The position numbers and the translations under genes are program-made. The notes beneath the pieces were generated by a model, which searched no databases, was not told the DNA's origin, and saw only the letters and a list, made by a program, of their open reading frames with translations. DNA of 64,000 bases from Actinomycetota bacterium (GTDB lineage: Bacteria; Actinomycetota; Thermoleophilia; BMS3ABIN01), in assembly GCA_016235065.1 (NCBI GenBank), contig JACRMB010000003.1:1-64000 (forward strand). Direction: 5' to 3'. The stretch's first letter is position 1; the number at the start of each line of letters is the position of its first letter. Below, one piece after another: positions 16,794 to 19,338 of this stretch.

Positions 16794-17855
16794 TTACGGC
16801 ACGACGTCGATTCTGCCCGTGTCGTCTTCCGCCTCCATAATGCCGATCCTGGCAGCCACGATCGTACCGGCAGCCTTCAGCTCGCCTTCCAACTCGTCAG
16901 CCTTTTCGGCAGAGCACGATATCAGCAGGCCTCCGGAAGTCTGTGCGTCAGCCAGTGTTAGTCGTTCTGCTTCTGTGATCGTGGGATCGAAATTCACAAA
17001 GGCGTTGACGAAGGTGAGATTGTTCTTGCTGCCACCCGGTACTGCATCAAGGTCCGCGTCGATCAGATCGCGGGCTGCCTGCATGACCGGCACTGCCCGG
17101 GCATGGATTCTGGCGCCAACACCACTTCCCCGGGTCATCTCACCGAGGTGCCCCAAAAGTCCGTAGCCGGTGATGTCGGTACAGGCGTTGACCCCCACTT
17201 TGACCATGGCTTCCGACGCGCCTCTGTTGAGCGCGGCCATGACTTCCACTACCCGTGTGACAGCTGCTTCAGAAACAGTCCCACGCTTGATGCCAGTAGT
17301 CAGAATGCCAACTCCCAACGGCTTTGTAAGAAAGAGCACGTCGCCAACTTGCGCCGTCGAGTTGTAGACAACGTCGCCCGGTTTGATAACGCCGGTGACC
17401 GCAAGCCCGTATTTGGGCTCCTTGTCGTCGATGGTATGGCCGCCAATGATGTCGACGCCTGCTTCGCGCGCCTTGTCGCCGCCGCCCTTCATCATCTGAA
17501 TCAGGATCTCAAGCGGCATGCCGCTTGAGTGAAAGCCGACTACATTGAGAGCGAACAGCGGTTTGGCGCCCATGGCATAGACGTCGCTGAGCGCGTTGGC
17601 GACCGCGATGGCGCCGTAATCGTACGGGTCATCCACGATGGGCGTGAAGTAATCCACCGTCTGGATGATCGCCAGATCCTCGGCGATCTGATACACGGCA
17701 CAGTCGTCACCGGTATTAATGCCCACCAGGACGTTAGGATTCGTCACAAGGGGGAGCTCTTTAAGAACTGTTTGCAAGTCCGACGGACTTATCTTGCACG
17801 CTCAGCCGGCCCCGTGGGCCAGCTGGGTCAGGCGGATCTCTTCCTTGTCGCCCAT
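16794..17855 (-). CDS. selD: selenide, water dikinase SelD, a selenoprotein (Sec18)
   Basis: SelD makes selenophosphate from selenide and ATP. The uninterrupted frame starts only at 17777, but the ATG at 17855, 6 bases after GGAGGAG, opens a frame that encodes IRLTQLAHGAG, then TGA (17804-17802), then ACKISPSDLQ and runs straight into the body. Family members carry Cys or Sec exactly there, in GAGC/UxCK. The TGA is therefore read as Sec18 and the protein is 353 residues, a normal length. GDDCAVY, GGHTIDD and DITGYGLLGHL mark the ATP-binding core. A hairpin follows the TGA (separate entry). It converges with the kinase gene. It implies selA, selB and tRNA-Sec elsewhere in the genome. Confidence 0.93.
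17772..17798 (-). promoter_or_regulatory. Candidate bacterial SECIS hairpin in selD
   Basis: Just downstream of the Sec codon the mRNA can fold with an AGUCC/GGACU apical stem, a 3-nt GUC loop and a lower UGCA/UGCA stem with a 5-nt bulge. A small apical loop beginning with G, a few bases past the UGA, fits bacterial SECIS elements bound by SelB. The fold was drawn by hand. Confidence 0.6.
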
Positions 17856-17971
17856 GGTCCTCCTCCGATCGTGAACACGATGATTCTATCACCGTAGCAA
17901 ACATTTCAATCATACATCGGGGAAAATTTTCAGGTTCACGGGGGATTATTCCAGGCCGGCGGGATTCCCCG

Positions 17972-18757
17972 TCAGGCTCCAGCGAGGTCCCAGGCCATGC
18001 GGATTGCGGTTACGCCTATCAGGACGGCGAGGATGTGTCTCAGCCGCCGGCGTCCCGTGCGGATCGAAAGCGCGCCCCCCAGCTGCGCTCCGGCAACCGC
18101 GCCGACGACGCAGAACAGCGCCATGGAATAATCGACCTGGCCCGTGGCGATTTTTCCGAAAGATCCAGCCAGCGCCGCCAGAAAGACGATCCCAAGGGAG
18201 CTGCCGATCACCGTGCGGGTTGGTATCCCGAGAACGTAGAGCATCACGGGAATAAAGATAAAGGCGCCGGATTGTCCTACCATGCCTCCCACAAGTCCGA
18301 TCGCCAGGGCGCAGGAGAGAGCGAGGCCGCGATTGAAATCGACACTTGCGGCGGTTGGCTCTTCAACGGCCTCGCGGTGTGGTGCAAGCATAAGCACCGC
18401 AGCCGCCAGGGCCAGGAGAGCGAAGATGCCTTCGAGGATATCGGAAGAAAGGTTCCTGGAAAAAACAGCACCGGCCAGGGAAGCAGCAGCTGCGCCGCTC
18501 CCCATCCAGAGGACGAGGGACTGGTTTAGGTATTTGAACCGGCGATGGACGGCAGCCCCAGATCCAGTGGCGAAAAGGCTCTGGACCATGGTGAGCCCCG
18601 CGACCGTTTTCATGTCGAGGACACCGGCTCCGACGGCGGAGGGGACATAGAGCAGCAGCGGCGCCATCACAATACCGCCTCCGATCCCGAGCCATCCGGA
18701 GAAAAAGCCCCCGATCAGGCCGAGGCAGATAAGCGTGGTCGCCAGATAAAGGGTCAT
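17972..18757 (-). CDS. TauE/SafE family sulfite/anion exporter-like membrane protein
   Basis: 261 residues with about eight hydrophobic helices in two similar halves. The glycine-rich GGFFSGWLGIGGGIVMAPLL near the N-terminus and GLVGGMVGQSGAFIFIP in the second half are the internal repeat typical of TauE/SafE (DUF81) permeases. The ATG at 18757 is chosen because the upstream part of the open frame overlaps the aldolase gene. Substrate is probably a small organic or inorganic anion, unproven. It lies 17 bases after the class II aldolase gene and is probably co-transcribed. Confidence 0.85.
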   Translation of the reverse strand: MTLYLATTLICLGLIGGFFSGWLGIGGGIVMAPLLLYVPSAVGAGVLDMKTVAGLTMVQSLFATGSGAAVHRRFKYLNQSLVLWMGSGAAAASLAGAVFSRNLSSDILEGIFALLALAAAVLMLAPHREAVEEPTAASVDFNRGLALSCALAIGLVGGMVGQSGAFIFIPVMLYVLGIPTRTVIGSSLGIVFLAALAGSFGKIATGQVDYSMALFCVVGAVAGAQLGGALSIRTGRRRLRHILAVLIGVTAIRMAWDLAGA

Positions 18758-18774: not shown

Positions 18775-19338
18775 TCAGCCGTCCAGCTGCTCGCCGCCGG
18801 CGGACTGCGCCAGGTAAGCCACTTCGCAGGATAGCGCCAGAGCCGACGTGTATGCCAGGGCCTCGTTCAGGGTACGCCCAACCACATAACAGCCGTGGCC
18901 CTTGACGATCACGGCGACATGGGCCTGGAGTAGCTGGGGGATGCGGTTGGCCGCCTGCGCTGAAGTGACGACCGGGATCTCGCGCAGGAAGACCGAGCCC
19001 TCCAGATCCTGCGGCGCGATTATTTCGTTCGTCAGCGACATGGCGATGGCGTGCGGCGGATGGGCGTGGATGATGGCCGCGGCTGGGGTGAACTTGTATA
19101 TCAGCTGATGGAGAGCGACATCGTTGGAGGCTTCGTTGGTGATATTGTCCGGCTCCTCGCGCAGAGGCACTTCGACGAGGTCGGCGGGATCCAGCCGGCC
19201 GAGCATGGCGAAATGTGCCGTGATGACGATCTTCCCCTGATGGCGGACGCTCATATTGCCACCATGCGAGGTGGTAAGCCTGAGCCTTAGCAGGTCGTTG
19301 CCAGTTTCCTGGAACTGATCGTAAATGAAGTCTTGCAT
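18775..19338 (-). CDS. class II aldolase/adducin family protein
   Basis: 187 residues. The zinc-site motifs HAHPPHA and KGHGCYVVG and the phosphate-loop-like SHGGNMSV are those of L-fuculose-phosphate/ribulose-phosphate aldolases. It probably cleaves a sugar phosphate to DHAP or an equivalent; the natural substrate is not deducible. The start has a strong GGAGG 4 bases upstream. It is followed by the TauE-like gene. Confidence 0.8.
   Translation of the reverse strand: MQDFIYDQFQETGNDLLRLRLTTSHGGNMSVRHQGKIVITAHFAMLGRLDPADLVEVPLREEPDNITNEASNDVALHQLIYKFTPAAAIIHAHPPHAIAMSLTNEIIAPQDLEGSVFLREIPVVTSAQAANRIPQLLQAHVAVIVKGHGCYVVGRTLNEALAYTSALALSCEVAYLAQSAGGEQLDG

Follow-up and report, generated by a model that had tools for sequence, protein, structure and literature searches.

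Does a selD frame with an in-frame TGA in its active-site loop encode a selenophosphate synthetase (SelD) that is itself a selenoprotein, or is the gene shortened, decayed or differently decoded? The locus lies in a window of 64,000 nucleotides, the whole stretch of DNA that was analysed, and an earlier note on this DNA had proposed that its SelD is a selenoprotein. From the alignment of the UGA with Cys codons of homologues, its conservation among relatives and the selenocysteine (Sec) machinery of the genome, which support this proposal, we regard it as almost certain that 17855-16794 on the minus strand encodes a functional Sec-containing SelD. The features are collected in Table 1.

Table 1. 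Features of the selD locus and of the Sec machinery. Positions prefixed C3 refer to the contig that also carries selD.
Feature	Position	Strand	Description and basis
selD, selenide water dikinase (selenophosphate synthetase)	16794..17855	(-)	353 aa, Sec at residue 18 (predicted), stop TAA
ATG start codon	17853..17855	(-)	ATG, GTG or TTG here or one codon later in 17/17 family SelD genes
Shine-Dalgarno-like GGAGGAGGA	17858..17866	(-)	ends 2 bases before ATG; from sequence
In-frame UGA, codon 18, predicted to be read as Sec	17802..17804	(-)	aligned with Cys in HGAGCGCK of 3u0o; UGA in 17/17 family SelD genes
Probable bacterial SECIS hairpin	17773..17798	(-)	TGCA / AGTCC-GTC-GGACT / TGCA; fold, synonymous conservation, loop position
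TauE/SafE permease	17972-18757	(-)	directly upstream of selD, with the aldolase
Class II aldolase	18775-19338	(-)	directly upstream of selD, with the permease
selA	C3:296728-298125		575 bits
selB	C3:294715-296601		359.3 bits with neighbours in frame
tRNA-Sec	C3:294333-294424		67.8 bits, gathering score 47; anticodon TCA by ARAGORN

Reading frame, start and active-site position

When TGA was read as U, the frame was open over its full length with exactly one in-frame TGA. The predicted N-terminal protein sequence is MGDKEEIRLTQLAHGAG-U-ACKISPSDL..., which places the UGA in the loop HGAG-U-ACKISP. The earlier note had given the coordinates of the gene correctly and had left its strand unstated. 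The product matched TIGR00476 (NCBIfam) with 376.5 bits (cut-off 125) over model positions 1-310 of 311, and both AIR synthase domains, AIRS and AIRS_C, were found in it. Its best match among sequences of solved structures was SelD 3u0o (E 1e-81, aligned over residues 5-328), which we take to be the E. coli protein. In this alignment HGAGCGCK of 3u0o lies over HGAGUACK, with U18 and K21 opposite the Cys and the Lys, presumably the catalytic residues of 3u0o. The proposal that TGA replaces the catalytic Cys codon in a GAG-U-ACK loop is borne out by this alignment. A second structure, 2yye, was aligned over residues 6-326; it is presumably SelD of Aquifex, with Sec as the native residue at its SSGCAAK loop.

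The sequence upstream of the ATG reads GGAGGAGGACC, and all 17 family genes have, before the start, a run rich in purines that resembles a Shine-Dalgarno sequence by eye. The Shine-Dalgarno-like GGAGGAGGA is the candidate for the ribosome-binding site that had been claimed for the extended frame. The list of table-11 ORFs held a different model, namely only a 327-aa ORF that begins at TTG 17777 and is 26 residues shorter than the 353-aa frame, as the earlier note had predicted of gene callers. Taken at face value, this ORF would mean that translation begins after the UGA and that the 327-residue product lacks the Sec loop. The probability of such a product is practically negligible: in each of the 110 homologous loci that were read at the level of single bases the alignment spans the site, as a UGA or a Cys codon, the conserved hairpin described below contains the TTG, and no clear Shine-Dalgarno sequence was seen before it by eye. 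Likewise, a truncated gene model is very unlikely because the position of the upstream start is kept in 17/17 family genes. Homologues without this N-terminus, which the earlier note had named, together with a better ATG/SD pair downstream, as an observation that would speak against the extended frame, did not appear among the 110 loci, in all of which the alignment covers the site.

Conservation of the UGA and Sec machinery of the genome

The search for SelD covered a sample of 299 genomes of the class at a threshold of E 1e-50, and 165 of them gave a match. The codon at the site was then read base by base in 110 loci, which comprise the gene itself, 29 of the best matches among the 299 class genomes and 80 relatives' loci kept of 126 found. 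TGA was present in 99 loci, TGC in 9 and TGT in 2, a proportion that is not informative on SelD generally, since the loci are those most closely related to a query of the Sec type. The codon regions of eight of them (L051-L058) recur in L022-L037, and both sets probably come from the same genomes. The alignment with Sec- and Cys-type SelD that the earlier note had suggested as a check accordingly gives a UGA or a Cys codon at the site throughout. Within the family, UGA occupies the site in all 17 SelD genes found across 19 genomes, even in those with as little as 68% protein identity. The 13 loci examined from a second family of the class all carry it as well. The nearest titled relatives (84-91% identity) are metagenome assemblies labelled Thermoleophilia bacterium or Actinomycetes bacterium, which makes an uncultured actinobacterium the probable source of the DNA. 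The 110 loci show the pattern by which a bacterial selenoprotein is recognised, a conserved in-frame UGA at a redox site with homologues that carry Cys there.

An in-frame stop codon could also be the mark of a nonsense mutation, which would make selD a pseudogene. However, the same codon is shared by the 17 family genes down to the most distant of them, the remainder of the frame is intact and the Sec machinery is present, and we attach virtually no probability to a pseudogene.

Three family genomes showed gaps. In G054 (94% complete) and G082 (86%) no SelD match was found at E 1e-50, only weak matches of 23-29% identity, despite the presence of selB in both; G099 (85% complete) carries a Sec-type selD and gave no selB match at E 1e-60. 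These gaps reflect incomplete assemblies or real losses, of which the former are a likely reason.

Only loci read base by base were counted, and the search flag '1 TGA' was not used to number the Sec genes of the class. Three long frames that were inspected, in G231, G183 and G111 (L142-L144), proved to be neither Sec genes nor fusions: they encode Cys-type SelD with the flagged TGA at the C-terminal end, where the search had read on in a GC-rich frame. In L142 and L144, from other members of the class, the Cys-type selD was seen by eye to lie near a downstream selB-like GTPase gene.

The genome that carries the window (2.37 Mb in 10 contigs, 98.87% complete) contains selA, selB and tRNA-Sec. 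The three adjoin one another, share a strand and are separated from selD, which is on the same contig, by about 277 kb. Among 18 matches to tRNA-Sec, only one scored above the cut-off of 47. The absence of Sec machinery, a finding that the earlier note had held would count against its reading, was therefore not what the genome showed. Since the adjoining histidine-kinase gene has an ordinary TGA terminus, UGA also serves as a stop here. A genome-wide reassignment of UGA to Trp or Gly, in favour of which nothing was found, can be dismissed as exceedingly improbable in view of this UGA-terminated neighbour, of tRNA-Sec, selA and selB, and of the single UGA in the frame, which falls exactly at the active-site position.

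A second gene with an in-frame UGA encodes formate dehydrogenase alpha (L131, C2:52350-53618; TIGR01591, 863.9 bits, cut-off 666.25). Its UGA lies in CART-U-HAPT, and a hairpin that has GGTC as its loop comes after it. The frame upstream in L131 (residues 1-392 of the stretch) matches NAD(P)-binding models of the glutamate-synthase-small-subunit-like type, which suggests a fusion of such a part with formate dehydrogenase alpha. A search of the genome for the selenouridine synthase SelU/YbbB (TIGR03167) gave no match at E 0.001.

With regard to the genes directly upstream of selD, the aldolase was present in 15 and TauE in 7 of 16 related loci (L022-L037), which extend up to about 4 kb, so that some genes are perhaps cut off. 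A link of the TauE/SafE permease to selenium or sulfur supply would be a guess.

RNA-level constraint downstream of the UGA

Constraint on the RNA was assessed as synonymous identity per codon, for which sequences that agreed in the amino acid were compared two by two and identical codons counted; Met, Trp and codons with too few pairs were excluded. In the 17 family genes the mean synonymous identity was 0.90 for codons 20-28 and 0.53 for the whole gene, and none of 100,000 random codon sets reached 0.90. The top eight among 340 nine-codon windows start at codons 15-22. Codons 16 and 17, directly before the UGA, are likewise conserved, so that the synonymous peak extends around codons 16-28. 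The second family gave a value of 0.84 versus 0.48 overall, again reached by 0/100,000 random codon sets. Because synonymous sites are nearly frozen directly after the UGA, an overlapping RNA element is indicated, and the sequences point to a SECIS.

The candidate element is the hairpin listed in Table 1, the apical loop of which, GUC (G-first), occupies +18 to +20 downstream of the UGA. The earlier note had placed a hairpin at 17772-17798 and had proposed to scan it with a SECIS model. The fold at 17773-17798 confirmed the position. With Rfam as the SECIS model, nothing reached gathering score in the window, no family reached E 4 at the hairpin, and the only two matches in 17600-17900 had E-values of 4.5 and 8.1. 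The stability of the hairpin as a single sequence was within chance (37 bases, z -0.67, 38/200 shuffles as good), and a longer stretch of 61 bases gave no significant fold signal (z +0.50). It is the G-first loop at +18 together with the synonymous conservation that mark the hairpin as a probable SECIS; its single-sequence stability is not significant.

Structure after the codon was also compared with synonymous reshuffling, with identical stretches merged and the Sec locus L127 left out as incomplete. For 87 distinct Sec sequences the mean z was -1.55, with 62/87 below -1 and 25/87 failing to reach this value. The mean was -0.03 for 11 Cys sequences (0/11 below -1) and -0.29 for 389 control windows (99/389 below -1). 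The Sec sequences differed from the controls with p 1.4e-19 and from the Cys sequences with p 3.2e-6, p-values that are too small in that the sequences are related. The signal of the gene's own family was weaker than that of the 87 Sec sequences overall (mean z -0.91), and the gene's own sequence had a z of -0.68.

The position of the most stable local hairpin varied among SelD genes. Its loop was at +18 in 13/16 distinct family sequences (+14, +14 and +27 in the others) and at +21 in 12/12 sequences of the second family. Among 59 other distinct Sec sequences it was at +33 or +34 in 23, and elsewhere in the remaining 36, many of them at +17 to +21. Judged by record titles, the +33/+34 group takes in Chloroflexi, Planctomycetes and Acidobacteria and one record of Actinomycetota (L101). 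In several SelD genes of other groups (L113, L063, L064 and others), the region 10-50 bases after the UGA seems by eye able to form both a proximal hairpin and a distal hairpin whose loop, of the GGU type, lies near +33/+34. As a side observation, the SECIS may have shifted within the SelD family. We think it unlikely, if conceivable, that the element has moved in such a way that the proximal hairpin is under selection in the class (two families, loop at about +18 to +21) and the distal one at +33/+34 serves many genes of other groups, where both hairpins might compete and tune read-through to selenium supply.

Proposed pathway and comparison with known Sec-SelD

By analogy with the known pathway, SelB and Sec-tRNA-Sec would act with the hairpin directly after the UGA to insert selenocysteine at residue 18. 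The resulting SelD would convert ATP and selenide to selenophosphate, which SelA would use to form the Sec-tRNA-Sec that both formate dehydrogenase and SelD itself require, and SelD would in this manner depend on its own product. It was proposed in the 1990s that Sec-SelD has an autoregulatory role.

The gene is a valid further example of Sec-SelD, which has been familiar from many bacteria for a long time, and it opens no new question on the function of Sec or SelD. It restores to the SelD model the 26 residues that standard gene calling would cut off, and it assigns a Sec-decoding trait, with SelD and formate dehydrogenase alpha as the minimum set of selenoproteins, to an actinobacterial lineage whose nearest named relatives among the records compared are metagenome assemblies. 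Among the literature that pairs selenoproteins with Thermoleophilia, no title concerned Sec.

Sec-containing SelD is established, and PMC1794560 ranks it with FdhA as one of the two bacterial selenoproteins of widest occurrence and reports it in Deltaproteobacteria, Clostridia and 'Actinobacteria', including Rubrobacter. SelD-Sec is likewise treated in PMC4561486.

Compared with the solved structures, the gene described here encodes a homologue of 3u0o, which has Cys in GAGCGCK whereas the gene here has Sec in GAGUACK, and a homologue of 2yye, the deposited chain of which has the SSGCAAK loop. With known bacterial Sec-SelD it shares the UGA at the catalytic position, the bacterial Sec machinery and formate dehydrogenase as companion selenoprotein. 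It differs from them in its loop, GAG-U-ACK, and in the hairpin of two families of its class, the loop of which lies mostly at +18 to +21, in contrast to the +33/+34 of 23/59 others.
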